Assembly: GCF_005281615.1 (NCBI RefSeq)
Contig: NZ_SZZM01000001.1
Coordinates: 1,707,455 to 1,771,454, forward strand
Direction: 5' to 3'
Source of the DNA: Rhodoligotrophos defluvii
GTDB lineage: Bacteria; Pseudomonadota; Alphaproteobacteria; Rhizobiales; Im1
Length of the DNA stretch: 64,000 nucleotides
Part shown: piece after piece, positions 108-25,782 of the stretch
Position numbering within the stretch: the first letter of the stretch is position 1
How the letters are laid out: every line of letters starts with the position of its first letter
Notes under the pieces: generated by a model
Database searches by the model: none
What the model was told of the DNA's origin: nothing
Seen by the model: the letters and a program-made list of their open reading frames with translations, nothing else
Position numbers and translations under genes: made by a program

Positions 108-3100
108 ATGATCTCGAAGCTATTCATAGCAAATCGTGGTGAAATCGCATTGCGGATTGCGCGGGCGGCCGCCGATCTTGGCATCCCGTACGTTGCCGCC
201 CATCCTGCTGATGATGCGGCCTCCCTGCATGTGCGCAATGCCGAGCTGGCGATGCAGCTTCCCGGCCGCGGGGCCTCCGCCTATCTCGATATCGACGCGC
301 TCGTGGCGGCGGCCGTCTCCAGCGGCTGCGATGCGGTGCATCCTGGCTATGGCTTCCTGAGTGAAAATCCCGCCTTCGCCCGCAAAGTGCGGGAGAGCGG
401 CCTCGTCTTCGTCGGGCCGCGGCCCCAGGTGCTGGAGCTGTTCGGCGATAAGGCGGCGGCGCGGCAGCTCGCCCGCTCCTGCGGCATCCCGATGCTGGAT
501 GGCACCGAAGGACCGACCAGCCTGGAAGACGCGCGCCGCTTCTTCGCCAGCCTTCAGCCGGGCGAGATGGCCATCATCAAGGCGGTGGCCGGCGGCGGCG
601 GCCGTGGCATCCGCATCGTGCGCTCGGCCGAGGCGCTGGACGAAGCTTATGAGCAGTGCCGGTCGGAAGCGCTGATGTCCTTCGGGCAGGACGGCGTCTA
701 TATCGAGCGCTATCTGTCGCGCGCCCGCCATATCGAAGTGCAGATCGCCGGTGATGGCCGCGAAATCGTTCATTTCGGCGAGCGCGAATGCACCGTGCAG
801 CGGCGGCATCAGAAGGTGGTGGAGATCGCACCGAGCCCTACCTTGCGCCCCGAAATGCGGGAGCGGCTGTGCCAGGCCGCCATCGCCCTCGGCAAGGCCG
901 TCTCGTACGAAGGGCTGGGCACGGTCGAATTCCTCGTCTCGGACGATGGCGCCCGTTTCGCCTTCACCGAGGTCAATCCGCGCCTGCAGGTCGAGCATAC
1001 GGTGACCGAGGAGGTGTTCGGCATCGACCTGGTCGCAACCCAGATCAGGCTGGCCGAGGGGCGCTCCCTGGCGGAGCTGGGCTTCGCGCCCGGCGAGAGC
1101 CTCGCGCCGCGCGGTCATGCCATCCAGCTGCGCATCAACATGGAGCGGCTCGACAGCCAGGGTCGCACCGCGCCTTCGAGCGGCACGATCAAGGCCTATG
1201 AGCTGCCCACCGGTCCGGGCATCCGCATCGACGGCTTCGGCTATGCCGGCTACCGCACCTCCACCCTTTACGATTCACTGCTGGCCAAGCTCATCGTCCA
1301 TTCGCCCAGCAGCGCCTATGCCGATGCGGTGCGCCGGGCGCAGCGGGCGCTGAAGGAATTCCGCGTGACCGGCGTCGGCACCAATATCCCGCTGCTGCAG
1401 GCTCTGCTCGACCATCCCGATTTCCGCAGCAACAACCTGCACACCACCTTCCTCGAAGAGCGCATCGGCGAGCTCGTCGCGGCCATGCCGGCTGCGGCCG
1501 AGGCGCCCGCCAAGAGCCATCGCAGCGCAACGGCGGAGCGCAGGAACCTGCGCGACGAGGTGGACCCCCTCGCCCTGTTCAGCGCCACCAGCAATGGCAC
1601 CGCGGTCGCGGCCCTGGTCTCCGCGGTTGCCGACGATCACGGCTATCTCCAGGCCGCCCCCCTGCAGGGCACCATCATCAAGCTGGCCGTGGAACCGGGC
1701 AGTGCCGTGGCCAAGGGCCAGACGGTGGCCGTGATGGAAGCCATGAAGATGGAGCATCTCGTCACCGCCGAAGTGGCGGGCACGGTGCGCTGGCTCCATG
1801 TCACGGAAGGCGACACGGTGTTCGAAGGCGAGCCGCTCCTGTCCATCGAAGAGGGCGAAGCGGGTGGGGCGGACGGCCCGGACGAGCAGTCCGTGGATCT
1901 GGATGAGATCCGTGGCGACCTGGCCCAGGTGCTCGCGCGGCAAGCCATGCTCATGGACGCGGCTCGCCCCGATGCGGTGGCGCGGCGGCGCAAGACCGGC
2001 CAGCGGACCGTGCGCGAGAACATCGCCGATCTGTGCGACGAGGGTAGCTTCATCGAATATGGCGGGCTCGCGATAGCCGCCCAGAGCTCGCGCCGCAGCT
2101 TCGAGCAGCTTCTGGCCATGAGCCCGGCCGACGGGATGGTGACTGGGCTCGGCACCGTCAACGGCAAGCTGTTCGATGACGAGCGGGCCCGCTGCGCTGT
2201 CATGGGCTATGACTACACCGTGTTTGCGGGCACCCAGGGGATCATGAACCACCACAAGACCGACCGCATCCTGGAGCTCGCCGACCGCTGGTCCATGCCG
2301 GTCGTGCTGTTTGCGGAAGGGGGCGGCGGCCGGCCGGGCGATGATTGGCCATCGCCAGCGGTGCTCCATACCCCCACCTTCCGCGATTTCGGCGCGCTGA
2401 GCGGCAAGGTGCCGACCATCGGCATCGTGTCCGGCCGCTGCTTTGCCGGTAATGCCGCGCTGCTCGGCGCCTGCAACGTCATCATCGCCACCAGGAACAC
2501 CACTCTGGGCATGGGCGGCCCCGCCATGATCGAAGGCGGCGGCCTCGGCGTGTTCCCGCCCGAAGTTGTCGGCCCCATGAGCGTGCAGGTGCCGAACGGG
2601 GTCGTCGATATTCCCGTCGAGGACGAGGCGGAGGCGGTGAAGGCCGCCAAGGCCTACCTCTCCTATTTCCAGGGCCCGGTTTCCGAATGGGATTGCGCGG
2701 ACCAGCGCCTGCTGCGCCACGCCGTACCGGAGAACCGACTGCGCGCCTATGATATCCGCGCGCTGATCGCCACCCTGGCCGACCGGGACAGCGTGCTGGA
2801 GCTGCGCCGCGGCTTCGGCCGGGCCATGGTCACCGCGCTCACCCGCATCGAAGGCCGGCCGATCGGCATCATCGCCAACAATTCCCAGCATCTGGGCGGA
2901 GCCATCGATGCGGACGCGGCCGACAAGGCTGCCCGCTTCATCCAGCTGTGCGATGCCTTCGACATCCCCGTTCTCGCCCTCTGCGACACGCCGGGGATGA
3001 TGGTGGGGCCGGAGGTGGAGAAAACCGCCCATGTGCGCCACTGCTCGCGCATGTTCGTGGCCGGCGCGCGGGTCAAGGTTCCCTATTTCACCGTGGTGCT

Positions 3101-3461
3101 GCGCAAGGGCTATGGCCTGGGCGCCCTGGCCATGGCGGCGGGCTCGACCCATGCCTCCGTATTCACCCTGGCCTGGCCCACGGCGGAATTCGGCGCCATG
3201 GGCATCGAAGGCAGCGTCAAGCTCGGCTATCGGCGCGAGCTCGAAGCCATTGCCGACCCCGCCGAGCGGCGGGCCTGGTTCGAACGGAAGGTTGCCGAGG
3301 AATACGAGAAGAACAAGGCGCTGAACGCCGCGACCATGCTGGAAGTGGACAATGTGATCGACCCGGCCGAGACGCGCCGCTGGCTCGTGCGCGGCCTGAA
3401 AGCCCTGCCGCCGCGCCGCGGCAAGCCGCTCGGCAACGGCCAATTGCTGGATACGTGGTGA
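108..3461 (+). CDS. Single-chain biotin-dependent acyl-CoA carboxylase (BC-BCCP-CT)
   Basis: This 1117-residue protein joins all three parts of an acyl-CoA carboxylase in one chain. The N-terminal biotin carboxylase runs to about residue 450. It has the ATP-grasp glycine loop AGGGGRG near 160-167 and EVNPRLQVEH near 288-297. The biotinyl domain carries EAMKMEH with the biotin lysine at about residue 547. The C-terminal carboxyltransferase covers about 600-1117. The length and domain order match the single-chain long-chain acyl-CoA carboxylases (LCC, about 120 kDa) known from mycobacteria and Rhodopseudomonas, which carboxylate a broad range of acyl-CoAs. Two acyl-CoA synthetase genes follow, the first after 55 bases, so the substrate is probably an acyl-CoA made by them. 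The exact acyl chain cannot be told from sequence. The upstream promoter is largely outside the window. Confidence 0.93.
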   Translation: MISKLFIANRGEIALRIARAAADLGIPYVAAHPADDAASLHVRNAELAMQLPGRGASAYLDIDALVAAAVSSGCDAVHPGYGFLSENPAFARKVRESGLVFVGPRPQVLELFGDKAAARQLARSCGIPMLDGTEGPTSLEDARRFFASLQPGEMAIIKAVAGGGGRGIRIVRSAEALDEAYEQCRSEALMSFGQDGVYIERYLSRARHIEVQIAGDGREIVHFGERECTVQRRHQKVVEIAPSPTLRPEMRERLCQAAIALGKAVSYEGLGTVEFLVSDDGARFAFTEVNPRLQVEHTVTEEVFGIDLVATQIRLAEGRSLAELGFAPGESLAPRGHAIQLRINMERLDSQGRTAPSSGTIKAYELPTGPGIRIDGFGYAGYRTSTLYDSLLAKLIVHSPSSAYADAVRRAQRALKEFRVTGVGTNIPLLQALLDHPDFRSNNLHTTFLEERIGELVAAMPAAAEAPAKSHRSATAERRNLRDEVDPLALFSATSNGTAVAALVSAVADDHGYLQAAPLQGTIIKLAVEPGSAVAKGQTVAVMEAMKMEHLVTAEVAGTVRWLHVTEGDTVFEGEPLLSIEEGEAGGADGPDEQSVDLDEIRGDLAQVLARQAMLMDAARPDAVARRRKTGQRTVRENIADLCDEGSFIEYGGLAIAAQSSRRSFEQLLAMSPADGMVTGLGTVNGKLFDDERARCAVMGYDYTVFAGTQGIMNHHKTDRILELADRWSMPVVLFAEGGGGRPGDDWPSPAVLHTPTFRDFGALSGKVPTIGIVSGRCFAGNAALLGACNVIIATRNTTLGMGGPAMIEGGGLGVFPPEVVGPMSVQVPNGVVDIPVEDEAEAVKAAKAYLSYFQGPVSEWDCADQRLLRHAVPENRLRAYDIRALIATLADRDSVLELRRGFGRAMVTALTRIEGRPIGIIANNSQHLGGAIDADAADKAARFIQLCDAFDIPVLALCDTPGMMVGPEVEKTAHVRHCSRMFVAGARVKVPYFTVVLRKGYGLGALAMAAGSTHASVFTLAWPTAEFGAMGIEGSVKLGYRRELEAIADPAERRAWFERKVAEEYEKNKALNAATMLEVDNVIDPAETRRWLVRGLKALPPRRGKPLGNGQLLDTW

Positions 3462-3516
3462 ACAAAGCTGCCCAAGAAGAAAAGCGGGAAGGACACGCAT
3501 TCGGGAGGACGAGACA

Positions 3517-5247
3517 ATGGCACAGACCGCCGGCAGCCCTGTGACCTTTGCGGGTGAAGAAGACTACTTGCGGCACCTGCGGGCGCTGTGGCAGCAGCGC
3601 TGGCCGGCCGAGGTGCCGCGGGAGCCGCGCTATCCCCTGGGCGAGATTCCGCTCACGGAATATCTGCGCGCATGGGCCGCCCGCACGCCGGACAAGCCCG
3701 TGGTCGTCTTCTACGGCCGCGAGCTGAGCTATGGGGAGCTCGACCGGCTGAGCGACCGCTTCGCCGCCATGCTGCGCAACCGTGGCCTCGAGCCGGGCGA
3801 CCGGGTGGCCGTGTTCCTCCCCAATTGCCCGCAATTCTACATCGTGTTCTTCGGCATCCTGAAGGCGGGCTGTGTGCATGTGCCAGTCAGCCCGATGTTC
3901 ACGGCCCCGGAGCTGGCCTATGAGCTGAAGGACTCGCAAGCCTCCTTCCTCGTCACCCACGATCAACTGTTGGCCACCGTGAACAAGCTGGCGGAGAACG
4001 AGCGGCCCGAGCACATCCTGGTCACCGCATCGCAGGACTTTCTGCCCGAGGAACCGGTGGCGCCGCTGCCGGCGAGCCTCACCCAGCCGCGCGTGCCCTA
4101 CCCGGAAGCCCAGGACCTGATGAGGGTGATTGAGGCGGAAGGCGATGGCGCGCCGTTGCCACCGGCCGACCTCGATGTGCTGGCCGCGCTCAATTATACC
4201 GGCGGCACCACCGGCTTTCCCAAGGGCTGCATGCATACGCAGCGCAACATGCTCTATACCGCCGCGGTCATCACTTCGATCAGCGCCGATATCACGGCCG
4301 ATGATGTGCTGATCAATTTCTGGCCGCTGTTCTGGGTGGCGGGCGAGGATGTCGGCATCCTCGCCACCGTGATGACCGGGTCCACCTGCGTGCTGCTCGC
4401 CCGCTGGGACCCGGACGCGTTCTTCGTGGCGCTGGAGCGTCACAAGGTCTCCTGCGTGTTCATGCTGGTCGACAATGCGGTCGAGCTGATGGCGCACCCG
4501 CGCGCCAGGCAGGGGAGCTTGCGCGCCCTCAAGACGGTGCTGGTCGTCTCGTTCGTGAAGAAGCTGAACGTAACCTTCCGCCGGCAATGGGAGGAGATTG
4601 CCGGCACGGTGCTGCGCGAAGCCGCCTGGGGCATGACCGAGACCCATTCCTTCGACGCCACCACCCGCGGGCTGCAGGACGGCGACTTCGACCTCAACGG
4701 GCGGCAGATCTTCATCGGCCTGCCGGTGCCCGGCACCGAGTTCAAGATCCTGGAATTCGGCAGCGACCGGCTGGTGCGGCTCGGGGAAGAGGGCGAGCTG
4801 TGCGTGAAGACGCCCTCGCGCCTGCTCGCCTATCTCAACAAGCCGGAAGAGACCGCGAACAGCATCGTCGATGGGTGGTTGCGCACCGGCGACATCGGCA
4901 TGATCAGCGAGGAAGGCTTCATCTACTTCCTCGGCCGTCGCAAGGAGATGCTGAAGCTCAAGGGCATGAGCATCTTCCCCGCCGAGATCGAGGCCGTGCT
5001 GGGCCAGCACCCGGCGGTGCTGGGCAGCGGCGTCATCGGGCGCGAGGATCCCGAGCGCGGCGAGGTGCCCGTGGCCTTCATCGTCGTGAGCCCGGACAAG
5101 GCGCATGAGGTCACGCCGGACGACATCGCCGCCTTCTGCCGCGAGCGGCTCTCCGCCTACAAGGTGCCGGAGGTGCGGATCATCGGCCAGCTGCCGATGA
5201 CGCCCACCGGCAAGGTGAAGAAGCACGAGCTCAAGGATCTCTTGTGA
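3517..5247 (+). CDS. AMP-forming acyl-CoA synthetase
   Basis: A 576-residue member of the ANL (acyl/aryl-CoA ligase) superfamily that activates a carboxylic acid through an acyl-adenylate to the CoA thioester. The phosphate-binding loop NYTGGTTGFPKG begins at about residue 226. The adenylation hinge region has TGDIG followed by GRRKEMLKLKG, and the C-terminal catalytic lysine lies in PTGKVKKHEL. The ATG is preceded by GGGAGG at 3503-3508. The gene follows the carboxylase and its stop overlaps the start of a second synthetase, which indicates one operon. Substrate is not predictable from the motifs; the neighbouring carboxylase suggests a fatty or branched acid. Confidence 0.92.
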   Translation: MAQTAGSPVTFAGEEDYLRHLRALWQQRWPAEVPREPRYPLGEIPLTEYLRAWAARTPDKPVVVFYGRELSYGELDRLSDRFAAMLRNRGLEPGDRVAVFLPNCPQFYIVFFGILKAGCVHVPVSPMFTAPELAYELKDSQASFLVTHDQLLATVNKLAENERPEHILVTASQDFLPEEPVAPLPASLTQPRVPYPEAQDLMRVIEAEGDGAPLPPADLDVLAALNYTGGTTGFPKGCMHTQRNMLYTAAVITSISADITADDVLINFWPLFWVAGEDVGILATVMTGSTCVLLARWDPDAFFVALERHKVSCVFMLVDNAVELMAHPRARQGSLRALKTVLVVSFVKKLNVTFRRQWEEIAGTVLREAAWGMTETHSFDATTRGLQDGDFDLNGRQIFIGLPVPGTEFKILEFGSDRLVRLGEEGELCVKTPSRLLAYLNKPEETANSIVDGWLRTGDIGMISEEGFIYFLGRRKEMLKLKGMSIFPAEIEAVLGQHPAVLGSGVIGREDPERGEVPVAFIVVSPDKAHEVTPDDIAAFCRERLSAYKVPEVRIIGQLPMTPTGKVKKHELKDLL

Positions 5248-6851
5248 TGGAGCACCGCGACCCCCGTATCCCGCGGCGCGAGGACTGCGTCTTGCGCTAT
5301 GTGCTGGAGCGCCGCGCCGCCGAGCACCCGCACCGGGTATTCATCAAGATGCCGGACGGGCGGGAATTCACCTATGGCGCCCTGCTCGATGATGCCCGGC
5401 GCATGGCTTCGGGCCTGGCGCAGCTGGGCGTGACCCAGGGCGACACGGTGGTGGTGTGGATGCCCAATGGCGTAGACATCGTGCGGGTGTGGTTCGCCAT
5501 CAACCTCCTGGGCGCCGTCTATGTGCCCATCAATATTGCCTATCGCGGCAACCTGCTCGCTCACGTCATCCGCAATGCCGCTGCCAAGGTGCTGATCGCG
5601 CGCGGCGACTATATCGGCCGGCTGAATGATATCGACACCAGTGCGCTGGAGACGGTGGTGTGCTTCGGCGAGGCCGCCCCGCTGAACAAGCCGCTCGCGG
5701 TCAAGCCCGCCAGCGTGCTGGATGGCGACCCGGCCGCCCTCCCGCCGCTGCAGCGCCCGATCGAGCCGTGGGACCTGCAGTCCATCATCTACACCTCGGG
5801 CACCACCGGCCCCTCGAAGGGCGTGATGAGCACCTATGCGCATCTCTATCATATGAGCGGTACCCAGGGCTTCTACATGGTTACCGGGGAGGACCGGTTC
5901 ATGTGCAACCTGCCGCTGTTCCATGTAGGCGGTACCGTGCCCATTGCCGGCATGATGAACCGCGGCGGTTCCGTGGCTCTGGTGGAGGCTTTCTCCACGA
6001 ACGATTTCTGGCCGGCGGTGGATGCGACCGAAACGACGGTGGTGATCCTGCTCGGCGTGATGGCCCGCTTCGTCATGACCCTGCCGCCCTCGCCGGACGA
6101 CCGGTCGCACCCGCTCAAGAAGGTGATCATGATCCCTCTGGCGGATGACTGGAAGGACTTTGCCGACCGCTTCGGCGTCACGGTCTGGACGCTGTTCAAC
6201 ATGACCGAGATCAGCGTGCCTATCGTGTCGGAGCCGAACCCGAACGTGCTCGGCAGCTGCGGCAAGATCCGTCGGGGCGTCGACATCCGCCTGGTGGACG
6301 AGAACGATGCCGAGGTGCCGGTGGGCCAGGTGGGCGAGCTGATCCTCAGGACCGATGCCCCCTGGGCCCTCAATTCCGGCTATTTTCGCGAACCGGAAGC
6401 CACGGCCCAGGCCTGGCGCAACGGCTGGTTCCACACCGGCGACGGCTTCCGCAACGATGAGGATGGCAACTATTTCTTCGTCGACCGCATGAAGGATGCG
6501 ATCCGCCGCCGCGGCGAGAACATCTCGTCCTTCGAGGTGGAGGCGGAGATCGTCGCCCATCCCGATATCCGGGAATGCGCCGTGGTGCCGGTGCCCAGCA
6601 CCTTCTCCGAAGACGAGGTGCTCGCCGTCGTGGCGCCGGTGCCGGGCCGCACGCTCGATCCGCTGGAGCTGCTCCGGTTCCTGCAGCCGCGCATGCCCCA
6701 TTTCATGCTGCCACGCTACATCCGCATCCTGGATGAGCTGCCGAAGACCCCCACCCAGAAAGTGCAGAAGCACCTCCTGCGCGAGGCCGGGCTGACATCC
6801 GATACTTGGGATAGGGAAGCGGCCGGCATCAAGATCAAGCGGCAGGCCTGA
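5247..6851 (+). CDS. AMP-forming acyl-CoA synthetase (second copy)
   Basis: A 534-residue ANL-superfamily acyl-CoA ligase with IYTSGTTGPSKG near residue 181, a TGD motif in the hinge region, the DRMKDAIRRRGENIS segment typical of crotonobetaine/carnitine- and medium-chain-type CoA ligases, and a C-terminal lysine in TPTQKVQKH. The ATG overlaps the preceding stop (TGATG), so the two ligases are translationally coupled. A GTG one codon upstream is a possible alternative start. It is only distantly similar to its neighbour, so this is not a recent duplication. Two ligases beside one carboxylase suggests either two acids or one acid plus its product. Confidence 0.92.
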   Translation: MEHRDPRIPRREDCVLRYVLERRAAEHPHRVFIKMPDGREFTYGALLDDARRMASGLAQLGVTQGDTVVVWMPNGVDIVRVWFAINLLGAVYVPINIAYRGNLLAHVIRNAAAKVLIARGDYIGRLNDIDTSALETVVCFGEAAPLNKPLAVKPASVLDGDPAALPPLQRPIEPWDLQSIIYTSGTTGPSKGVMSTYAHLYHMSGTQGFYMVTGEDRFMCNLPLFHVGGTVPIAGMMNRGGSVALVEAFSTNDFWPAVDATETTVVILLGVMARFVMTLPPSPDDRSHPLKKVIMIPLADDWKDFADRFGVTVWTLFNMTEISVPIVSEPNPNVLGSCGKIRRGVDIRLVDENDAEVPVGQVGELILRTDAPWALNSGYFREPEATAQAWRNGWFHTGDGFRNDEDGNYFFVDRMKDAIRRRGENISSFEVEAEIVAHPDIRECAVVPVPSTFSEDEVLAVVAPVPGRTLDPLELLRFLQPRMPHFMLPRYIRILDELPKTPTQKVQKHLLREAGLTSDTWDREAAGIKIKRQA

Positions 6852-9455: not shown

Positions 9456-9521
9456 CCTCGCGCTCCACATTTCGCCTGTCACGACAACGTCGCTGTGGGC
9501 ATTGGGCTCCCGAATCACGGG

Positions 9522-10163
9522 TTATAGGCGAAACCGCGCGAGTGCCGCCGTGACCTCTTCGTCCGAAACCTGGCGGAAATCCCGGTAAAACCGGCCAACC
9601 GCGTCGAACAGGTGCGGCATTTCCAGGCACAGCACCTCATCCGCCTCGCCGCGCAGCTCGTCGATGGCCTCGGCCGGGGCGACCGGCACGGCAAGCACCA
9701 GGGTCTGCGGCTTTCGCTTGCGTGTCGCGCGCAAGGCGGCCTTGACGGTGGCGCCGGTGGCGATCCCGTCGTCCACCACGATGGCGACGCGCCCGGCGAT
9801 GTCGGGGCGCGCTGCCCCGCCGAAATAGCGCTGGCGCCGCCGTTCGATCTCGGCCATCTCGCGCTGGCAGGCGGCTTCGAAGGCATCCGGCTGGATGCCG
9901 GTCAGCCCGATCACCTCCTCGTTGCGCACGACCGTGAGCGCCGCCCCATCGACCACCGCGCCCATGGCGAGTTCCGGCTGTCCCGGCGTGCCGATCTTGC
10001 GCACCAGGATCAGGTCCAGCGGCGCATCGAGCGCGGCCGCGATTTCGGCCGCAACTGGCACGCCGCCGCGCGGCAGGGCAAGAACCACCGGCCGGGCATC
10101 GCGGTAGTTCTGCAAAGCAACGGAAAGCCGGCGGCCCGCCTCCGACCTGTCGTGAAAGATCAT
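9522..10163 (-). CDS. Phosphoribosyltransferase domain protein
   Basis: About 213 residues with a type I phosphoribosyltransferase fold. The PRPP-binding loop is VAIVVDDGIATGATVKAA (two acidic residues followed by TGAT), and the N-terminal half has LALPRGGVPVAAEIA. This is the architecture of the widespread predicted PRTase family (COG1926) found with stress or alpha/beta-hydrolase genes; substrates are not established. The ATG at 10163 is preceded by an AGGAGAGGAAG-type ribosome binding site. A longer reading from 10274 would overlap the LysR gene and lacks homology-like sequence. It is probably co-transcribed with the DUF3775 gene downstream. Confidence 0.82.
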   Translation of the reverse strand: MIFHDRSEAGRRLSVALQNYRDARPVVLALPRGGVPVAAEIAAALDAPLDLILVRKIGTPGQPELAMGAVVDGAALTVVRNEEVIGLTGIQPDAFEAACQREMAEIERRRQRYFGGAARPDIAGRVAIVVDDGIATGATVKAALRATRKRKPQTLVLAVPVAPAEAIDELRGEADEVLCLEMPHLFDAVGRFYRDFRQVSDEEVTAALARFRL

Positions 10164-10219
10164 CGCCGCTTCCTCTCCTGCCAGCGCCACAGCCTGACTG
10201 AGGTCAAACGCGCTGGCGG

Positions 10220-11131
10220 TCACTGGCGTTCCGTGCGCCCCGCGCCGGCCAGCTCGAGCTCGGTGAGGATCCACCGGCGGAACATCTTCGCCTTGCGGCT
10301 CAACTCCGCGTCTTCCGCATAATTGAGGAAATAGTCGTAGCCCACATGAACCGAAACCGGGAATGGCTGCACCAGCCGCCCGGCCGCAATATCGTCCTGC
10401 GCCAGTGCGGTGAAGAACAGGGCAACGCCGTGCCCGTCCAGCGCCGCGCGCCGCAATGCGTGCGAATCGTTGAGCCTCAGGCTACGGACGTCGGGCGCCC
10501 AGGCGATCCCGGCCGCCTCGCACCAGGCCTTCCAATGGGCAATATCGAATTCGTAGAGCAGCAGCTGTGACATGAGTTGCGCCGGATGGGTGAGCGGCGC
10601 CAATCTTCGCGCCAGTTCTGGGCTGAGGACGACGGTGAGCGCTCCATCCAGCACCTTTTCCTTCACCACCCCGGCCCAGTTGCCGGCGCCCCAGTTGATG
10701 CCGATTTCGATCCCCTCCCGCTTGTGATCGGCCGGGTGGTAGGAATGGTGCAAGCGCAGCTCGATGCCGGGGTGTTGACCATAGAACGACATGAGCCGCG
10801 GCGTGAGCCAATGGGCAGAAAAGAAGGGGGCCACGCTGACATTCAGGATCTCGCGAGAGCCGCTGCCGGTGATGCGGCCCACGGAATCCTCGATGGTCTC
10901 GAAGGCGCGATAGAGGCCGGCGAACAGGATCTCGCCGGCATCTGTCAGCCGGTTGCGGGTGCCGCGGGCCACGAGCGTCACCGACAGTGCTTGCTCCAAG
11001 GCCTTGATCTGTCGGCTGACCGCTGCCTGGGTCACGCCCAGTTCCTGCGCCGCCTTGGTGAAGCTCAACGTCCGGCCGAGCGCTTCGAAGGCGCGTAGCG
11101 CGGTCAGCGATGGCATGGGGCGCCCACTCAT
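10220..11131 (-). CDS. LysR-family transcriptional regulator (GcvA-like)
   Basis: A 303-residue LysR-type regulator. The winged helix-turn-helix lies at about residues 7-65 (LSFTKAAQELGVTQAAVSRQIKALE), followed by an effector-binding domain of periplasmic-binding-protein type. The sequence FEALGRTLSFTKAAQELGV and the segment FSAHWLTPRL resemble the GcvA/AmpR-like subgroup. It is divergent from the ornithine cyclodeaminase-like gene at 11225 with 93 bases between them, the usual arrangement for a LysR protein and its target. The 3' end overlaps the extended region upstream of the phosphoribosyltransferase gene. Confidence 0.92.
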   Translation of the reverse strand: MSGRPMPSLTALRAFEALGRTLSFTKAAQELGVTQAAVSRQIKALEQALSVTLVARGTRNRLTDAGEILFAGLYRAFETIEDSVGRITGSGSREILNVSVAPFFSAHWLTPRLMSFYGQHPGIELRLHHSYHPADHKREGIEIGINWGAGNWAGVVKEKVLDGALTVVLSPELARRLAPLTHPAQLMSQLLLYEFDIAHWKAWCEAAGIAWAPDVRSLRLNDSHALRRAALDGHGVALFFTALAQDDIAAGRLVQPFPVSVHVGYDYFLNYAEDAELSRKAKMFRRWILTELELAGAGRTERQ

Positions 11132-16321: not shown

Positions 16322-17623
16322 ATGCAAGAGCCCTCGCATTTGGCACCTGTCACCACGCGCCCGACTGCCCTCTCGGACGAGGCACTGGTCGATCTTGTCC
16401 AGCGGCAGAGCTTCCGTTTCTTTTGGGAAGGTGCCCATCCGGTGAGCGGTCTCGCCCGCGACCGGACCACGACCACGGGAGATCCGGATGACGACATCGT
16501 CTGCAGCGGCGGCTCAGGCTTTGCCGCAATGGCCCTCGTCGTTGGTGCCGAGCGGGGCTGGATCACGCGGCAACAGGCGGTTGCCAGGCTCTCCACCATG
16601 CTCGACTGCCTGGAGCGGGCGACCTGCTACCACGGCGCCTTCCCCCACTTCCTGAACGGCCGCACCGGCGCCACCATTCCCTTCTCGCGCAAGGACGACG
16701 GCGGAGACATTGTCGAGACGGCGTTCCTGATGGAAGGGCTGCTCTGCGCCCGGCAGTATTTCGACGCCGATATCCCGGCTGAAACGCGCTTGCGCCAGCG
16801 GATCGACCTGCTGTGGCGGGAAACGGAGTGGAACTGGTACACCCAAGGCGGGCGCGAGGTGCTTTATTGGCACTGGAGCCCCAATAATGGCTTTGCCATG
16901 AACCATGAGGTGCGCGGCTGGAACGAGTGCCTGGTGGCCTATGTACTGGCCGCCGGCGCGCCGCGATATGCGATCGATCCCGGCGTGTATCACAACGGTT
17001 GGGCGCTCAACCGCGAGTTTCTCAATGGCCATAGCTATTATGATATCGAGCTGCCGTTGGGACCTCCCATGGGCGGGCCGTTGTTCTTCTGCCACTACAG
17101 CTTTTCCGGGCTCGATCCGCGCGGACTCAAGGATCGCTATGCTGATTACTGGCAGCAGAACCTCAGCCACACCCTGATCAACTACGCTCACTGCGTGCGC
17201 AACCCCTATGGCCACAAAGGCTATGGGCCGGACTGCTGGGGGCTCACCGCGAGCGATGACCCGAACGGCTATGCGGCACATGCGCCCAGCAACGACAACG
17301 GCGTGATCTCGCCGACCGCCGCCCTGTCGAGCTTTCCCTATGCGCCGGACAAGGCCATGCGCGCGCTGCGCCACTTCTATCACACGCTGGGCGACCGCAT
17401 CTGGGGCCGCTTCGGCTTCGTGGACGCCTTCTCCCTGAACGACGACTGGTATGCGCAAACCTTCCTGGCGATCGACCAGGGGCCGGTGGTCACCATGATC
17501 GAGAACCACCGGAGCGGCCTGCTGTGGCGGCTGTTCATGAGCGCGCCGGAAGTGCAGACCGGGCTGCGGCGGCTCGGGTTCACCAGCCCTCACCTGGGTA
17601 ATGACGGCACACCGGTGGCATAG
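16322..17623 (+). CDS. GH144-like endo-beta-1,2-glucanase (Pfam Glycoamylase fold)
   Basis: A 433-residue (alpha/alpha)6-barrel protein of the family once called putative glucoamylase (PF10091), which contains GH144 endo-beta-1,2-glucanases and the C-terminal part of cyclic beta-1,2-glucan synthases. Landmarks are QRQSFRFFWEGAHP near the N-terminus, SRKDDGGDIVETAFLMEGLL in the middle, LYWHWSPNNGF, CHYSFSGLDPRG, YGPDCWGLTASD and DAFSLNDDWYAQTFLAIDQ. These are strongly conserved in the family. No clear signal peptide is seen. It sits 18 bases after the ABC gene and its stop abuts the GH15 start, so these three form an operon. Activity on beta-1,2-glucan is inferred from the family. Confidence 0.85.
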   Translation: MQEPSHLAPVTTRPTALSDEALVDLVQRQSFRFFWEGAHPVSGLARDRTTTTGDPDDDIVCSGGSGFAAMALVVGAERGWITRQQAVARLSTMLDCLERATCYHGAFPHFLNGRTGATIPFSRKDDGGDIVETAFLMEGLLCARQYFDADIPAETRLRQRIDLLWRETEWNWYTQGGREVLYWHWSPNNGFAMNHEVRGWNECLVAYVLAAGAPRYAIDPGVYHNGWALNREFLNGHSYYDIELPLGPPMGGPLFFCHYSFSGLDPRGLKDRYADYWQQNLSHTLINYAHCVRNPYGHKGYGPDCWGLTASDDPNGYAAHAPSNDNGVISPTAALSSFPYAPDKAMRALRHFYHTLGDRIWGRFGFVDAFSLNDDWYAQTFLAIDQGPVVTMIENHRSGLLWRLFMSAPEVQTGLRRLGFTSPHLGNDGTPVA

Positions 17624-19107: not shown

Positions 19108-19854
19108 TCAATCGGCGCTCGGGGCGACCGATGCACGAGATGGTTCCGGTGCACCCCGTTCCTGGAGCGGATTGCCGAGGCCGTACAGCAGGAACTTGCG
19201 ATAGGTTTCGGCGACCTTCGGCAGAACCTCGGTGATGGGGCCGCCGCTGCGGGCCACGTATTGGGAATAGACGTAGTCGCGCGCTGATATGAGCAGATAG
19301 GCAAGCGTGTCGAGCTCGCTCTCGTCATAGGCCGCAAGCTCGCCCTTCTCCCAGCTCCGCCGCAGCGCCCGGCGGAAGCGCACCATGATGTTGTTGATAT
19401 GCGCTTCATAGGCGGCCGGGGCGCTCACCTGCGCTTCATGCAGCAGCCGGAAGAACCACGGGTTTTCGTTGGCATATTCGAAGAAGGCGATGAAGCCGCG
19501 CTGCTCCATTTCGATCAGGCTCTTGGCGCCGCGCACCTTCTCCTGAAGATAGTCGAGCACCTCGATGCCCTTGGCCGGCAGCAGAATGTCGAACAGTTCC
19601 TGCCGGCTTTCGAAATGCCGGTAGAACGTGCCCTGACCCAGGCCCGCCCGCTCGGTGATCCTGGTGATGGAGGCTTCCGCATAGCCGTATTCGCCGATCA
19701 CCTCGGCCGCGGCCTGCAGCAGGGCCTTGCGGTTCTCCGCCACTTGCTCGGCGCGCGTGCGCTTCCGCACGCCCTTCCGTGTCCGGGCGCTCGCCCCTGC
19801 GTCTGCTTCCGGGGGTCGAAGCCTGCGTTTCGTGGCGCGCGCGGCACTGCTCAT
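19108..19854 (-). CDS. TetR-family regulator of the acyl-CoA cluster
   Basis: A 248-residue TetR-type regulator with a basic N-terminal extension (about 1-35) and the helix-turn-helix at about 40-85 (ITRITERAGLGQGTFYRHFES). The C-terminal domain is the ligand pocket. It is the last gene of a minus-strand operon after enoyl-CoA hydratase and SDR genes, whose upstream region holds an inverted repeat at 21558-21578 that recurs at 25762-25782 before another operon of the cluster. Autoregulation in response to an acyl-CoA is therefore likely, though the link between protein and site is inferred. Confidence 0.9.
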   Translation of the reverse strand: MSSAARATKRRLRPPEADAGASARTRKGVRKRTRAEQVAENRKALLQAAAEVIGEYGYAEASITRITERAGLGQGTFYRHFESRQELFDILLPAKGIEVLDYLQEKVRGAKSLIEMEQRGFIAFFEYANENPWFFRLLHEAQVSAPAAYEAHINNIMVRFRRALRRSWEKGELAAYDESELDTLAYLLISARDYVYSQYVARSGGPITEVLPKVAETYRKFLLYGLGNPLQERGAPEPSRASVAPSAD

Positions 19855-20697
19855 CTATTCGCTCGAGGCCTCGCCTGTTTGCGACCCGACAGCCCTGGAT
19901 GCGTCGCCCGCGCCGCCGAAAGCGCACCAACCGCCATCCACAGGCAGCACGACCCCTGTAATATAGCTTGCCCAGTCGGATGCCAAGAACACCGCCGCCC
20001 GGGCAACCTCTTCCGGCTGGCCGAGCCGCGCCATCGGAATGCGGCGCTGAAACGCTGCGGCCGGCAGGCCCGTCTCGGCGAACATGGCCACGGCCATGCG
20101 GGTCTCGATGATGCCGGGCGCAACCGCGTTCACCCTGATGCCGCGCGAAGCGAGGTCGGCAGCCAAGGTCTGGGTCAGCATGACCACCGCCGCCTTGGAC
20201 ACCCCATAGGCGTTGGACGCCCGCATGGCCAGGAGCCCGGCTACCGAGGCGACATTGACGATCGCTCCGCCGCGCCGCCCGACTGTCATGGCCCGTGCCG
20301 CAGTGCGGGCCATCAGAAAGCTGCCCTGCAGGTTCACGTCGATGACGCGCCGCCAGTCGGCGAGGCTCTGGTCGGTGGTCCGCCGCACCGGCTCGGCGAT
20401 GCCCGCGCTGTTCACCAGCACGTCGAGTCCGCCGAGGCGCTCGATGACGGTGGAGATCGCGTTTTCGCAGTCTGCTTCCTGCGAGACGTCGCCCGCGAGC
20501 GAAATGACACCGCCGCCGATCGAGCACGCCGCGGCCTCAGCCGCATGCCCATCGAGATCCATGATCGCCACTTCGGCGCCACAGGCTTGCGCCAGCCGGG
20601 CGATGGCCAGCCCGAGGCCCCAGGCGCCGCCGGTCACCAGCACCCTGCGTGCGGTGAGCGTGAGGGCGCCGTCCCGGCACGCATCGTGTCCGGCCAT
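19855..20697 (-). CDS. SDR-family oxidoreductase (3-hydroxyacyl-type)
   Basis: A 280-residue classical short-chain dehydrogenase. The cofactor motif TGGAWGLG is near residue 22, the NSAG motif near 90, the catalytic Ser in NVASVAG and the catalytic pair YGVSK follow. DLDG after the second strand suggests NAD rather than NADP. The stop abuts the TetR start and the gene lies two bases after the enoyl-CoA hydratase, so all three are one operon. In that setting it may act as a 3-hydroxyacyl-CoA dehydrogenase, as 17-beta-HSD10-like SDRs do; the substrate is not shown by sequence. Confidence 0.88.
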   Translation of the reverse strand: MAGHDACRDGALTLTARRVLVTGGAWGLGLAIARLAQACGAEVAIMDLDGHAAEAAACSIGGGVISLAGDVSQEADCENAISTVIERLGGLDVLVNSAGIAEPVRRTTDQSLADWRRVIDVNLQGSFLMARTAARAMTVGRRGGAIVNVASVAGLLAMRASNAYGVSKAAVVMLTQTLAADLASRGIRVNAVAPGIIETRMAVAMFAETGLPAAAFQRRIPMARLGQPEEVARAAVFLASDWASYITGVVLPVDGGWCAFGGAGDASRAVGSQTGEASSE

Positions 20698-20698
20698 G

Positions 20699-21514
20699 TC
20701 AGCGGCCCTGAAAAACCGGCTGGCGGCGCTCCTTGAACGCTTGCACGGCCTCGCGATGGTCGGATGACAGGTTGGTCATGGCCTCGTAGGCGAGCGACGC
20801 ATCCATGATGCTGTGGGCCAGCTGCTTCAGCCCGATATTGATGCTGGCCTTGGTCCAGCGGATCGCCATGGTGGCGCCGGCCGCCAGCCGGTCGGCAAAG
20901 GCATCCACTGTCGCATCGAGCTCCGTCCGCGGCACGGCGCGGTTGATAAGCCCGATGCGCTCCGCCTCGCGCGCGGAGAGCCTGTCACCGGTCATCAGGA
21001 ATTCCTTGGCACGCGCATAGCCTACCAGCTGCGGCCAGATCACCGCCCCGCCATCGCCCGCCACCATGCCCACGCTCACATGGGGGTCCGAGATCACCGC
21101 ATCCTCTGCCGCGAAGATTACGTCGCAAAACAGGGCCAGGGTGCAGCCGAGCCCCACCGCCGGACCATTCACCTTGGCGATGATCGGCTTCTCGCAATCG
21201 AGCATGGAGAAAATGATCTGCTTGGCTTCCACCACCGTTCGCGCGAAAGCCTGCGGATCATCGAGGGCACCCTCCTGCCACTCTATGTCGCCGCCCGCGC
21301 AGAAGCCCCGGCCCGCGCCGGTAAGCACGATCACGTCGCAGGCCTCCTCGTTCGCCGCATCGGTGAACACCCGCGCCAGCTCGGCATGGAGCCGCGCATT
21401 CACCGCATTCAGGCGGTCCGGGCGGTTCAGGGTGAGATACAGGATCCGCCCGCGATAGCTCCAAGCGATGGTCTCGTAGTCGTCCCGCGTCATTGCGGCC
21501 CCCGGCTGTTGCAC
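20699..21514 (-). CDS. Enoyl-CoA hydratase/isomerase family protein
   Basis: A 271-residue crotonase-fold protein. The oxyanion-hole segments are GAGRGFCAGGDI near residue 66 and KVNGPAVGLGCTLALFCD near 115. The residue that usually corresponds to the second hydratase glutamate lies in SVGMVAGDGG, where the motif is Asp/Gly-rich rather than the usual GxxPE(AG)G, so hydratase versus isomerase or hydrolase activity cannot be decided. It is the first gene of the minus operon with SDR and TetR. Its promoter region is shared with the divergent acyl-CoA dehydrogenase. Confidence 0.9.
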   Translation of the reverse strand: MQQPGAAMTRDDYETIAWSYRGRILYLTLNRPDRLNAVNARLHAELARVFTDAANEEACDVIVLTGAGRGFCAGGDIEWQEGALDDPQAFARTVVEAKQIIFSMLDCEKPIIAKVNGPAVGLGCTLALFCDVIFAAEDAVISDPHVSVGMVAGDGGAVIWPQLVGYARAKEFLMTGDRLSAREAERIGLINRAVPRTELDATVDAFADRLAAGATMAIRWTKASINIGLKQLAHSIMDASLAYEAMTNLSSDHREAVQAFKERRQPVFQGR

Positions 21515-21545
21515 ATGGCCTCACCCTAGGTCCGGCGACAGGCCG

Positions 21546-21590
21546 CGTCAACAATGGTGAATTGCGAGTCACGTTTCATCTTGATTGACG
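21546..21590. promoter_or_regulatory. Divergent promoter with TetR-type operator (copy 1)
   Basis: A 21-base inverted repeat at 21558-21578 reads TGAATTGCGA, one central G, TCACGTTTCA. It is framed symmetrically by GTCAA (21547-21551) and TTGAC (21585-21589), each six bases away. These outer pentamers read as -35 boxes (TTGACG) for the two divergent operons. On the minus side a TAGGGT lies 17 bases beyond the -35. A near copy lies at 25762-25782. The best candidate ligand is the TetR protein encoded at 19108-19854. Confidence 0.7.
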
Positions 21591-21648
21591 GAGGCGACCG
21601 GTTACCCTGCGGTCCAGGAACAACGATCCATTGGCCGGAGGGCTTCAC

Positions 21649-22788
21649 GTGTCTTTACCCCGCGCGCTTTTCTCGGACGAGCACCGCATGTTCCGCGAGT
21701 CGGTCCAGGCCTTCCTCGAAAGGGAGATCAAGCCGCACTATTCCGCCTGGGAGGAGCGCGGCTGGGTCGATCGGGAAGCCTGGCTGGCCGCCGGCCGCGC
21801 CGGCTTCCTCTGCATGACGGTGCCGGAAGCCTATGGCGGCGCGGGTGCGGATTTTCTCTATTCCGCCATCCTCATCGAGGAGCAGTGGCGCGCGGGCTGC
21901 CCGGCGCCCGGCTACTACACCCATTCCGACATTGTGGCGCCCTACATCGCCAATTATGCGGGCGAGCCGCTCAAGCAGCGCTGGCTGCCGCCCATGGCGA
22001 GCGGAGAGGTGATCGCCGCCATTGCCATGACCGAGCCCGAGGCGGGCAGCGATCTCAAGGCCCTGCGCACCACGGCCGTGAAGGACGGGGAGGATTACCT
22101 CATCAATGGCGGCAAGACCTTCATCTCCAACGGCTGGCTCGCCGACATGGTCGTGGTCGCCGCCAAGACCGACCCGGCCAGCGGAGCAAAGGGCATCAGC
22201 CTGTTCGTGGTGGAAACGGGCCGGCCAGGCTTCCACAAGGGGAGGCGGCTGGAGAAGCTGGGCCAGAAGGCGCAGGACACCGCCGAGCTGTTCTTCGAGA
22301 ATGTCCGCGTTCCCGCCGGCAACATGATCGGCGAGCCGAACCGGGGCTTTGCCTATCTCATGAACCAGCTCGCCCAGGAACGTCTTGCCGTGGCGATCGC
22401 CGCCTTGGGCGGGGCCAAGGGCGCCTATTCCGGCACCCTCGATTACGTGCGCAGCCGCAACGCGTTTGGCCGGCCGGTCGCCGAGTTCCAGAATACCCAG
22501 TTCCAACTCGCTACCTGCAAGACCGAGATCGCCGTCGGCGAGGCCTTCGTCGACCGCTGCCTCGAGCTGCTTGTGCAGGGCGAGCTTCCGGCCGACAGCG
22601 CTGCCATGGCCAAGCTGTGGCTGACGGACATGCAGGCCCGCGTCGTCGACACCTGCCTGCAACTGCATGGCGGTTACGGCTACATGCTCGAATATCCCGT
22701 CGCCCGCGCCTATGCCGATGCCCGCGCTCAGCGCATCTATGCGGGCACCAACGAGATCATGAAGCTGCTGATCGCGCGAAATCTCTGA
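21649..22788 (+). CDS. Acyl-CoA dehydrogenase
   Basis: A 379-residue FAD-dependent acyl-CoA dehydrogenase. The FAD/substrate motifs AIAMTEPEAGSDL and NGGKTFISNG are present, followed by the C-terminal four-helix domain with LHGGYGYM and IYAGTNEIMKLL. The position that carries the catalytic glutamate in medium-chain enzymes (YEGT) is Ala here, as in the long-chain and isovaleryl types, where the base sits on another helix. The GTG at 21649 is chosen because GGAGGG at 21637-21642 lies six bases before it; a TTG at 21631 is in frame but has no such site. It is divergent from the enoyl-CoA hydratase operon and shares its operator. Confidence 0.9.
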   Translation: MSLPRALFSDEHRMFRESVQAFLEREIKPHYSAWEERGWVDREAWLAAGRAGFLCMTVPEAYGGAGADFLYSAILIEEQWRAGCPAPGYYTHSDIVAPYIANYAGEPLKQRWLPPMASGEVIAAIAMTEPEAGSDLKALRTTAVKDGEDYLINGGKTFISNGWLADMVVVAAKTDPASGAKGISLFVVETGRPGFHKGRRLEKLGQKAQDTAELFFENVRVPAGNMIGEPNRGFAYLMNQLAQERLAVAIAALGGAKGAYSGTLDYVRSRNAFGRPVAEFQNTQFQLATCKTEIAVGEAFVDRCLELLVQGELPADSAAMAKLWLTDMQARVVDTCLQLHGGYGYMLEYPVARAYADARAQRIYAGTNEIMKLLIARNL

Positions 22789-22816
22789 CCGCGAATTCTC
22801 AGCGGGAAGCCGGCGC

Positions 22817-24400
22817 CTACATCATGTCCCGCGCCATCTCGCGCAGCCGCGTCTTGAGGATCTTGCCCATGGGATTGCGCGGCATTTCGGCAATGAAGCT
22901 GATGCGGCGCGGCACCTTGTAGTCGGCCAGCCGCTCGCGGCAGAAGGCCATGAGCTCCTCCGCGCTGGGGCCCATGCCGCTGCGGCACACCACGAACACC
23001 TGGATGTCCTCCCCCAGCTTAGGATGCGGCACCGCCACCGCTGCCGCCTCGGCCACGGCCGGATGCTGGAACAGCACGCTCTCGATCTCCATCGAGCCGA
23101 TATTGTGGCCGCCGCGGATGATCATGTCCTTCTTGCGGTCCACGTGATAGTAGAACCCGTCTTCGTCCATGCGCCCGAGGTCGCCGCTGAGGAACCATTC
23201 GCCGCGGAAGGCTGCGGCGGTGTTTTCCGGCTCCTTGTAATATTCGCGCATGACGCAGGGCGCCTTGATGGCGATCTCGCCGGTTTCGCCGACGGCGACA
23301 TCCTGCCCCTCGTCGTTCAGCAGCCGCACCGCCACACGCGGCATCGGCTGCCCGATCGAGCCGAGCTTCGTCAGCGCATGGTCCGGGTTCAGCACCGTGC
23401 CCGACGGTCCCATCTCGGTCGCGCCATAAGTCTGCATCAGGTCGATCCCGGGAAAGACTTGCGCCAGCCGCTCGATGATTTCCCGCGACATCGCTGCACC
23501 GCCATAAGTGAACTGGCGGATGCTGGCGATGTCGTGCCTGCCGCGATCGAACGTCTCCAGCAGGAAGATGTAGAAGGACGGCACCGCGTAATACATCGTG
23601 GTGCGCTCGCGGCGGATGCGTGCCAGCACGTCCTCGAGCTCCATCGCCGGATCCATCACGGCGGATGCGCCCGCCCACCAGGCCGGCAGCACCACGCAGC
23701 GCGGACCGGCCGTAACGAAGCAGGGGAAGAAGCTCTGCACGATGTCGTTTGGCCGCAGCCGTAGCGTTTCCACGAAGATCTGGGCGGAAACAGCTGCGCG
23801 CCCGTGGGTCATCACCGCACCCTTGGGATGGGCCGTGGTGCCGGAAGTGAACAGGATATCGCACATGTCATCCGCCGTGACCTCGGGCCAGCCGGCCGCC
23901 GCGGGCTCACCCGCCGCGAACACCTCCCCATAGGCCGTGGTGCCCGGCGCGCCGCCCGAGAGCGCAACCACGTGCTTGAGTGCGGAGAGACGCGGCCGCA
24001 CCCGGGCCAGCTTGTCCAGCTGGTCGCCTGCCGCGATCACGGTGCTGCATTCCGCCTTGTCCAGCACATAGGCGATCTCGTCCGGGGCATAGCGTGCGTT
24101 CAACGGCACGAACACGCCGCACAGCCGATGGATGGCGAGCATGCTGACCATGGCCTCGCAGCCGGCCTGGTTGTCCATGAGAATGGCCACCCGGTCCTTG
24201 GGCGCAACACCGAGGCGCCGCAAACCGTCAGCCAACCGGTCAACCTCCCGCTTCAGTGCGGCATAGGTGAGGCGGATCTCGCCGCGCGAGCACGATCGGG
24301 CGACCAGGGCCTGCCGATCCGGCTGGCGCTCGGCGTGTTTCTCCAGCATTTCCACGGTCGTCCGCGCAAAGAGCCCGTCGGGCATGTTTCCCCAGACCAT
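22817..24400 (-). CDS. AMP-forming acyl-CoA synthetase
   Basis: A 527-residue ANL-superfamily ligase, the third in the window. The nucleotide loop is ILFTSGTTAHPKG near residue 188, QTYGATEMGPSG forms the adenine pocket, and the C-terminal domain has DRKKDMIIRGGHNI and the catalytic lysine in NPMGKILKTRL. It lies 34 bases downstream of the binding-protein gene on the same strand and probably shares its promoter and operator. It would provide the CoA ester for the dehydrogenase and hydratase encoded nearby. Chain specificity is unknown. Confidence 0.91.
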   Translation of the reverse strand: MVWGNMPDGLFARTTVEMLEKHAERQPDRQALVARSCSRGEIRLTYAALKREVDRLADGLRRLGVAPKDRVAILMDNQAGCEAMVSMLAIHRLCGVFVPLNARYAPDEIAYVLDKAECSTVIAAGDQLDKLARVRPRLSALKHVVALSGGAPGTTAYGEVFAAGEPAAAGWPEVTADDMCDILFTSGTTAHPKGAVMTHGRAAVSAQIFVETLRLRPNDIVQSFFPCFVTAGPRCVVLPAWWAGASAVMDPAMELEDVLARIRRERTTMYYAVPSFYIFLLETFDRGRHDIASIRQFTYGGAAMSREIIERLAQVFPGIDLMQTYGATEMGPSGTVLNPDHALTKLGSIGQPMPRVAVRLLNDEGQDVAVGETGEIAIKAPCVMREYYKEPENTAAAFRGEWFLSGDLGRMDEDGFYYHVDRKKDMIIRGGHNIGSMEIESVLFQHPAVAEAAAVAVPHPKLGEDIQVFVVCRSGMGPSAEELMAFCRERLADYKVPRRISFIAEMPRNPMGKILKTRLREMARDMM

Positions 24401-24434
24401 CGCGTCCTCCCAGCGCTCATGCTTCGCGCAGCCG

Positions 24435-25637
24435 TCAATGCTTGACCAGCGGACAGTCGGACTCCGCCAGCGGTCGCCAGCTCTCTTCCGCCGGCACCGT
24501 CTCGAGGATCTTGTACAGGTCCCACGGGCCTTTGGATTCGGCCGGCGATTTCGCTTCGGCGATGTAGGATTTGCGCATCACGCGGCCATCTTCGCGGATC
24601 TCGACGTTATCCGAATAGAAGTCGTTGACCGGCATTGCCTTCATCATGGCGCTCACCTTGTCGGGATCCTTGGTCCCCGCGGCTTTCACCGCTTTGAGGT
24701 AGTGGAGCACGGCGCTGTAGGTGCCCGCGTGCGCCTCGGCCGGCATGAAGCCGTTGCGCTTGTAGAAGCGTTCGGCCCAGGCCCGGGTTTTGTCGTCCAG
24801 ATCCCAGTAGAACACGGTCGGGAAGATCACTCCCTGCGCCGCGTCCAATCCCAGCGCCTTCACGTCGTTCACCAGCAGAACGAGCGGGATCAGTTTCTGC
24901 TGGCCGCCCAGCTGGAACTCCTGCCACTGCTTGATGGAGTTGGTGGTGTCGGTGATGGCGTTCATCAGCGCCACCGCCTTGGCGCCCGAGCCCTGGGCCT
25001 GGAACAGGAAGGAGGAGAAGTCGGTCGTGCCGGGCGGATGGCGCACGGTGCCGACCACCTTGCCGCCCGCTTGCTCGACCGCCTTGGTGACATCGGCCTG
25101 CATGGCATGGCCGAAGGCGAAGTCGGCCACCACCAGGAACCAGGTGTCGTCGCCGGCCTTGGTCAGCCGTTTCGGCAGCACGCTGGAGAACATGTAGGTG
25201 TCGTGGCTCCATTGGGTGCCATAGGGCGAGCAGGCCTTGCCGGTGAAGGCCGAGCTGGACGCGCCGGCGAAAAGCACCAGCTTCTTCTTCTCGCGGGCGA
25301 GTTCCTGCACGCCCAAGCCGACGGCCGAATTGCCGATATCGGCGATGACGTCGACGCCCTCGTCGTACCATTTGCGCGCGATGCCCAGGCCCACATCCGG
25401 CTTGTTGACGTGATCGGCGGAGACGAGCTCGATCTTCTGCCCGAGCACTTCGCCGCCGAAGTCCTCGATCGCCATGCGCGCACCGTCGATGGACCCCTCG
25501 CCAAGGGAGCTGGAGAGGAAGCCGCTCAGATCGGTGAGCACGCCGATCTTGACGGCACCTTCCTCCGCCCGGAGCGGTGCCATCGTCCCGCCCGCAAACA
25601 GTGCCGCCGCGCAAAGCGCAGCCAAAATCCGCTTCAT
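24435..25637 (-). CDS. ABC-type branched-chain amino acid/aromatic acid binding protein (LivK-like)
   Basis: A 400-residue periplasmic binding protein with a signal peptide (basic start, hydrophobic core, cleavage after APLRA). The mature part has KIGVLTDLSGFLS and the type I periplasmic-binding fold used by Liv-type and aromatic-acid uptake systems. No Liv permease or ATPase gene is in the window, so it is an orphan that either borrows a transporter encoded elsewhere or acts as a sensor. It is the first gene of an operon with an acyl-CoA synthetase, and an inverted repeat like that at 21558 lies 125 bases upstream. This suggests it captures the acid that the cluster degrades. Confidence 0.88.
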   Translation of the reverse strand: MKRILAALCAAALFAGGTMAPLRAEEGAVKIGVLTDLSGFLSSSLGEGSIDGARMAIEDFGGEVLGQKIELVSADHVNKPDVGLGIARKWYDEGVDVIADIGNSAVGLGVQELAREKKKLVLFAGASSSAFTGKACSPYGTQWSHDTYMFSSVLPKRLTKAGDDTWFLVVADFAFGHAMQADVTKAVEQAGGKVVGTVRHPPGTTDFSSFLFQAQGSGAKAVALMNAITDTTNSIKQWQEFQLGGQQKLIPLVLLVNDVKALGLDAAQGVIFPTVFYWDLDDKTRAWAERFYKRNGFMPAEAHAGTYSAVLHYLKAVKAAGTKDPDKVSAMMKAMPVNDFYSDNVEIREDGRVMRKSYIAEAKSPAESKGPWDLYKILETVPAEESWRPLAESDCPLVKH

Positions 25638-25750
25638 GGGGACCTCCCTCGCGATCCGTTCACATTTCGTTGCCGGACACGCTTCGCCCGAGAAATCGAT
25701 CGGGAATGCGGGCCCGGGACACCGGCTACGGCATCGCCCCGAGTCATACC

Positions 25751-25782
25751 GTCAATAAAGGTGAAAAGCGAGTCGCAAATCA
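25751..25782. promoter_or_regulatory. TetR-type operator (copy 2)
   Basis: The 21-base repeat at 25762-25782 reads TGAAAAGCGA, central G, TCGCAAATCA, with a perfect GCGA-G-TCGC core. GTCAA at 25751-25755 stands six bases to the left, exactly as in copy 1 at 21547-21578, and reads as a minus-strand -35 (TTGACG). It precedes the binding-protein and synthetase operon. The remaining 25638-25932 holds no gene. Confidence 0.68.

Follow-up and report, generated by a model that had tools for sequence, protein, structure and literature searches.

Two candidate operators for a TetR-family regulator, lying close to outward-facing promoters of acyl-CoA genes in Rhodoligotrophos defluvii

The genes and the two palindromes

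The window, i.e. the whole stretch of 64,000 nucleotides of Rhodoligotrophos defluvii DNA that was analysed, contains two short palindromic sites lying among genes related to acyl-CoA metabolism. To the left of site 1 are three genes on the minus strand, encoding an enoyl-CoA hydratase/isomerase family protein (ECH, 20699-21514; PF00378, E 2.5e-53), an SDR-family dehydrogenase (19855-20697; PF13561, E 1.5e-67) and a TetR-family regulator (19108-19854; PF00440, E 5.7e-14), the last being the predicted binder of both sites. To its right, on the plus strand, is an acyl-CoA dehydrogenase (21631-22788; PF00441, PF02770 and PF02771), the true start of which may be the GTG at 21649 that is preceded by GGAGGG. 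Leftward of site 2, again on the minus strand, are an ABC-type solute-binding protein (SBP, Peripla_BP_6, 24435-25637; PF13458, E 8.6e-95) and an AMP-forming acyl-CoA ligase (22817-24400; PF00501, E 1.9e-82). This is the gene context that had been given in the preliminary description.

No permease or ATPase genes adjoin that of the solute-binding protein, and no liv-like genes were found in the window by blastp. Orthologous solute-binding genes likewise lack such neighbors in three other loci (L013 6213-7478, L024 1018-2304 and L025 10715-12043), while full liv-type transporters are present in the more distant clusters L038, L040 and L074. A sensing role for the solute-binding protein is possible. 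Elsewhere in the window, at 108-6851, two genes for AMP-forming ligases follow one for a biotin carboxylase/carboxyltransferase-like protein of 1117 aa, and no operator-like site lies ahead of this group.

Both sites are imperfect palindromes of 21 bp, to which no strand is assigned, with a central G flanked by pairing at seven of ten positions in each copy. Site 1 (candidate operator 1, TGAATTGCGAGTCACGTTTCA) lies at 21558-21578 and site 2 (candidate operator 2, TGAAAAGCGAGTCGCAAATCA) at 25762-25782, exactly as first described. Each copy has GTCAA on its left at a distance of six bases (21547-21551 and 25751-25755). On the right, TTGAC at this distance is present for copy 1 (21585-21589) and absent for copy 2.

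A pattern shared by the two sites, and derived from them, has no match in the window besides the sites themselves when up to three mismatches are allowed, where shuffled sequences lead to an expectation of 0.03. On the same terms the whole genome of 5.49 Mb contains the two sites plus two places with three mismatches, both of which are within coding frames. A weight matrix constructed from 19 sites of other loci, excluding the window, ranks site 1 and site 2 first and second in the window with scores of 20.8 and 18.6, the next position scoring 8.8, and no position in 3 Mb of simulated sequence reached the score of either. The training sites for this matrix were chosen using a core pattern that itself came from the window, and therefore the reverse test was also performed, with a matrix made from the two window sites alone. 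Over 19 loci with TetR homologues its best scores added up to 272, compared with 210 ± 18 for column-permuted decoys, none of which (0 of 400) reached 272; some individual loci, e.g. L026, L029, L038 and L040, were not significant. On leaving out one locus at a time the proposed site or sites held the top ranks in 13 of the 14 loci outside the window, the exception being L037.

Related loci and the arrangement of promoters

The TetR homologues found at palindrome-bearing clusters have 34 to 73% identity. Close homologues are rare, being those of Camelimonas lactis (L013), Azospirillum oleiclasticum (L014) and two genomes of a single genus in the same order as that of the window (L024 and L025), with 57 to 73% identity over the aligned part; all four loci retain a site in front of genes of corresponding kinds. 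Homologues of lower identity (34 to 53%) are encoded in other genomes of the class, and also on Azospirillum, Neorhizobium, Tistrella and Sulfitobacter plasmids. As labeled by blastp against a small reference set, the neighbors of the homologues are mostly genes for acyl-CoA dehydrogenase, hydratase, ligase and SDR proteins together with ABC or TRAP transporters. In most of these loci at least one operon is preceded by a palindrome of the class with consensus TGAATnAYGAnYCRTnATTCA, often placed between divergent operons. No convincing site was seen within the stretch examined in three mid-distance homologue clusters (L028-L030), nor in that of the plasmid loci L038 and L040.

Searches made with the motif alone led to clusters in which acyl-CoA or transporter genes accompany a TetR homologue, containing four sites (L072), two sites (L073) and one site (L074), and met L027 a second time. 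At three further matches (L075, L077 and L081) no TetR homologue was detected by blastp against the reference set. The exact consensus TGAATNNTGANTCANNATTCA occurs twice in 385 genomes of the class. One match is at a TetR homologue (G691). The other, at position 2285 of L076, is in a small AT-rich genome (G730) with no recognized TetR or acyl-CoA genes nearby, and may be due to chance. The four strong sites of L072 (at 3811, 4125, 8247 and 17220) fall in 13.4 kb around genes for a TetR homologue, MaoC, SDR, acyl-CoA dehydrogenase, ligase and TRAP proteins, and the flanks of the site at 4125 are an inverted copy of those of the site at 17220. Near the TetR homologue of L035 there is a perfect inverted repeat at 10379-10406, TGATTGATGAC and GTCATCAATCA separated by six bases, that may represent either a variant of the operator or a doubled one.

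The TTGAC motifs had been read as -35 boxes facing outward from the palindromes, and this is now well supported by sequence comparison. In the window TTGACG is located 6 bp from operator 1 on both sides, at 21546-21551 (minus strand) for the leftward ECH-SDR-TetR promoter and at 21585-21590 (plus strand) for the rightward acyl-CoA dehydrogenase promoter, and 6 bp from operator 2 at 25750-25755 (minus strand) for the SBP/acyl-CoA ligase promoter. The spacing is kept across homologous loci. Of the 42 sides of 21 sites, 19 have an outward TTGAC or TTTAC at a distance of 5 to 8 bp, which for 13 of them is exactly 6 bp. Some of the loci are related and so not independent, yet about ten distinct loci contribute to these 19 sides. 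Every other offset up to 100 bp has at most one such box, and inward-facing copies give no comparable peak on the same 42 sides.

The leftward ECH-SDR-TetR promoter has a candidate -10 TAGGGT (21523-21528, minus strand) at 17 bp from its -35, and TAGGGT is likewise at 17 bp in the orthologous locus of A. oleiclasticum. TAGNNT or a similar -10 is found at 17 bp in many loci, being TAGCGT or TAGCCT in some of them. The rightward promoter has the weak -10 TGCGGT (21608-21613, plus strand), and no good -10 was found for the SBP/acyl-CoA ligase promoter. The number of boxes equals the number of genes served, with two boxes for two genes at site 1 and one box for one gene at site 2. The idea that TTGAC forms part of a longer palindrome was rejected, since at site 2, which serves a single gene, the motif is present on just one of the two sides. 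The assignment as -35 elements is well supported because the spacing peak, the -10 elements at 17 bp in many loci and the agreement of box and gene counts all point the same way. If it is correct, the center of the operator is near -52 of each promoter.

The TetR protein and its probable mode of action

Judged by sequence, the two sites are very likely operators of the neighboring TetR protein. Its helix-turn-helix domain (PF00440) is at residues 45-89, with 52.1 bits against a cut-off of 24. The predicted fold has nine helices and matches structures of the TetR family, with a mean pLDDT of 65.9 indicating moderate confidence. The protein falls far below the cut-off of all the named NCBIfam TetR equivalogs, including FabR, FasR and AcuR; that for FadR of Bacillus gives 36 bits where 200 are required.

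The best match among PDB sequences is FadR of Sulfolobus acidocaldarius (6EL2 and 6EN8, E 5.8e-20), which is also the best fold match of the model. This protein represses a beta-oxidation cluster locally until acyl-CoA releases it, and its Gly48 and Tyr51 are important in DNA binding (PMC6449355). On alignment both are kept in the recognition helix of the window protein, as Gly75 and Tyr78, while the remaining DNA contacts of FadR (Tyr47, Leu49 and Phe52) differ. FadR Arg73 and Arg86, which hold the CoA, correspond to Leu100 and Leu113. The ligand of FadR is not transferable to the window protein because of these replacements, and classification of the latter as a Sulfolobus-type FadR was rejected as the two CoA-binding arginines are not conserved. 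The kinship with FadR together with the gene content makes an acyl-CoA effector plausible.

We consider it probable that the protein is a local, autoregulated repressor that sits just upstream of each -35 box at back-to-back promoters, and that an acyl-CoA of the pathway releases it. One dimer at operator 1 would span approximately positions -42 to -62 in two sigma-70-type promoters simultaneously, these being the back-to-back promoters of ECH-SDR-TetR on the left and of the acyl-CoA dehydrogenase on the right. Bound at operator 2, a dimer would cover the corresponding region of the single SBP/acyl-CoA ligase promoter. Occupancy against the -35 boxes would keep RNA polymerase off, so that the TetR protein would limit its own synthesis. 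Following uptake and activation of the substrate, an acyl-CoA intermediate would bind in the C-terminal pocket, the protein would leave the DNA, and all three transcription units would be expressed. We infer all three elements of this scheme, i.e. binding, repression in preference to activation, and the acyl-CoA ligand.

The position of the sites speaks against repression, since they are found upstream of the -35 and do not cover the -35 and -10 themselves, and the nearly fixed spacing between operator and -35 is more than simple blocking requires. The same protein bound to the same operators might then be an activator, or activate on one side and repress on the other, touching RNA polymerase from about -52 at promoters with a weak -10. 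A location upstream of the -35 is suited to activation, as are the near-fixed gap of 6 bp in both directions across the loci and the weak -10 at two of the three window promoters. Against this, the -35 boxes are near consensus (TTGACA/G), which is unusual in activator-dependent promoters, and the closest relative of solved structure, Sulfolobus FadR, is a repressor. While AtrA is an example of an activator in the TetR family, repressors predominate among members encoded at less than 200 bp from a divergent gene (PMC3511530). Repression is favored because of the nearest relative FadR, the near-consensus -35 boxes and this behavior of TetR proteins near divergent genes, and we regard activation as unlikely, although it is the leading alternative. 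A more general proposal is that this is a conserved TetR subfamily with a fixed address 6 bp upstream of back-to-back -35 boxes, in which one dimer would contact two polymerases and switch or activate both directions, the geometry being reused for many acyl-CoA pathways. We advance this tentatively, and think it unlikely.

Extent of regulation and relation to known systems

The preliminary description had treated the two sites as defining an acyl-CoA regulon, with further copies expected before other beta-oxidation genes. Pattern-matching scans of the 5.49-Mb genome, of which a relaxed version gave 146 matches with the first places among them listed, revealed no comparable site before such genes among the matches listed. 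The local part of the proposal is well supported, in that palindromes of this type, with their 6-bp spacing, recur with TetR homologues and acyl-CoA clusters elsewhere, while the wider regulon fails among the matches listed. Because the scans gave no site before other beta-oxidation genes, regulation in the source genome appears from its sequence to be local, with two sites serving three transcription units. Weaker matches at C1:983582, 1541661, 321347 and 323425 and at C7:198257 were rejected as they are inside probable coding frames, as was C1:570520, which overlaps a gene start; C1:992528 was not assigned to a gene context.

Among the matches listed the only other strong intergenic site is at C2:94184, beside a paralogous TetR gene (C2:93479) whose product is 38% identical to the window protein. 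Its site, TGAATTCTGAGCCATCGTTCA, is of the same class. In this locus (L032) the site (10185-10205) is flanked to either side, at 6 bp, by an outward -35 box, and lies between the TetR gene (9459-10199) and a cluster of TRAP transporter, kinase-like and acyl-CoA ligase genes. The window sites might therefore be real operators bound by another regulator of the TetR subfamily such as this paralogue, or by both proteins with cross-talk, given that the paralogue has a site of the same class. However, the homologues adjoin their own sites, and the core tends to CGA/TCG in orthologues of the window protein compared with TGA/CCA at the paralogue, which is suggestive only, being based on few loci. Assignment to another regulator is consequently improbable. 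Chance resemblance, or functionless traces of shared ancestry, is most improbable: while there are only two copies, each pairing at just seven of ten positions, the ranking by the external matrix, the reverse-matrix result and the peak of -35 spacing all speak against it, as does conservation of the site beside proteins of merely 34 to 60% identity where the surrounding sequence has diverged.

No earlier description of the motif was found in the text (as distinct from figure logos) of the open-licence papers searched, and those listed as matching the motif string were all unrelated. The layout of operator and promoters is now testable for a group of TetR proteins located beside acyl-CoA, ABC and TRAP transporter clusters. 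The operator can serve to delimit the regulon of any given homologue and in the search for inducers, and hence for the substrates, of the clusters, while the near-fixed spacing to two outward promoters poses a clear mechanistic question.

Several known systems bear comparison. PsrA, FadP and LiuQ are TetR-family regulators of the degradation of fatty acids or branched-chain amino acids in Proteobacteria (PMC5343134), and resemble the window protein in family and in the control, predicted for the latter, of acyl-CoA degradation genes. Yet PsrA and FadP control many genes, on average 11 and 18 per genome, and FadP and LiuQ are reported from Betaproteobacteria alone (PMC5343134); no global fatty-acid regulon of the PsrA/FadP type was seen here, with two sites plus one at the paralogue among the matches listed. 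BadR, with operators between the divergent aliA/aliB promoters, offers a parallel to the proposed system, in that this repressor responds to a CoA thioester and acts on divergently transcribed genes of an acyl-CoA pathway. It belongs, however, to the MarR family, and its CAATnnATTG sites are short and overlap the -35 boxes, each promoter having one (PMC9795900). Sulfolobus FadR has in common with the window protein the TetR family and the Gly and Tyr of the recognition helix, and its local repression of a beta-oxidation cluster through few semi-palindromic sites resembles what is predicted for the window protein. It differs in that its motif is 16 bp compared with 21 bp in the window, and most of its sites are more than 130 bp from promoters.
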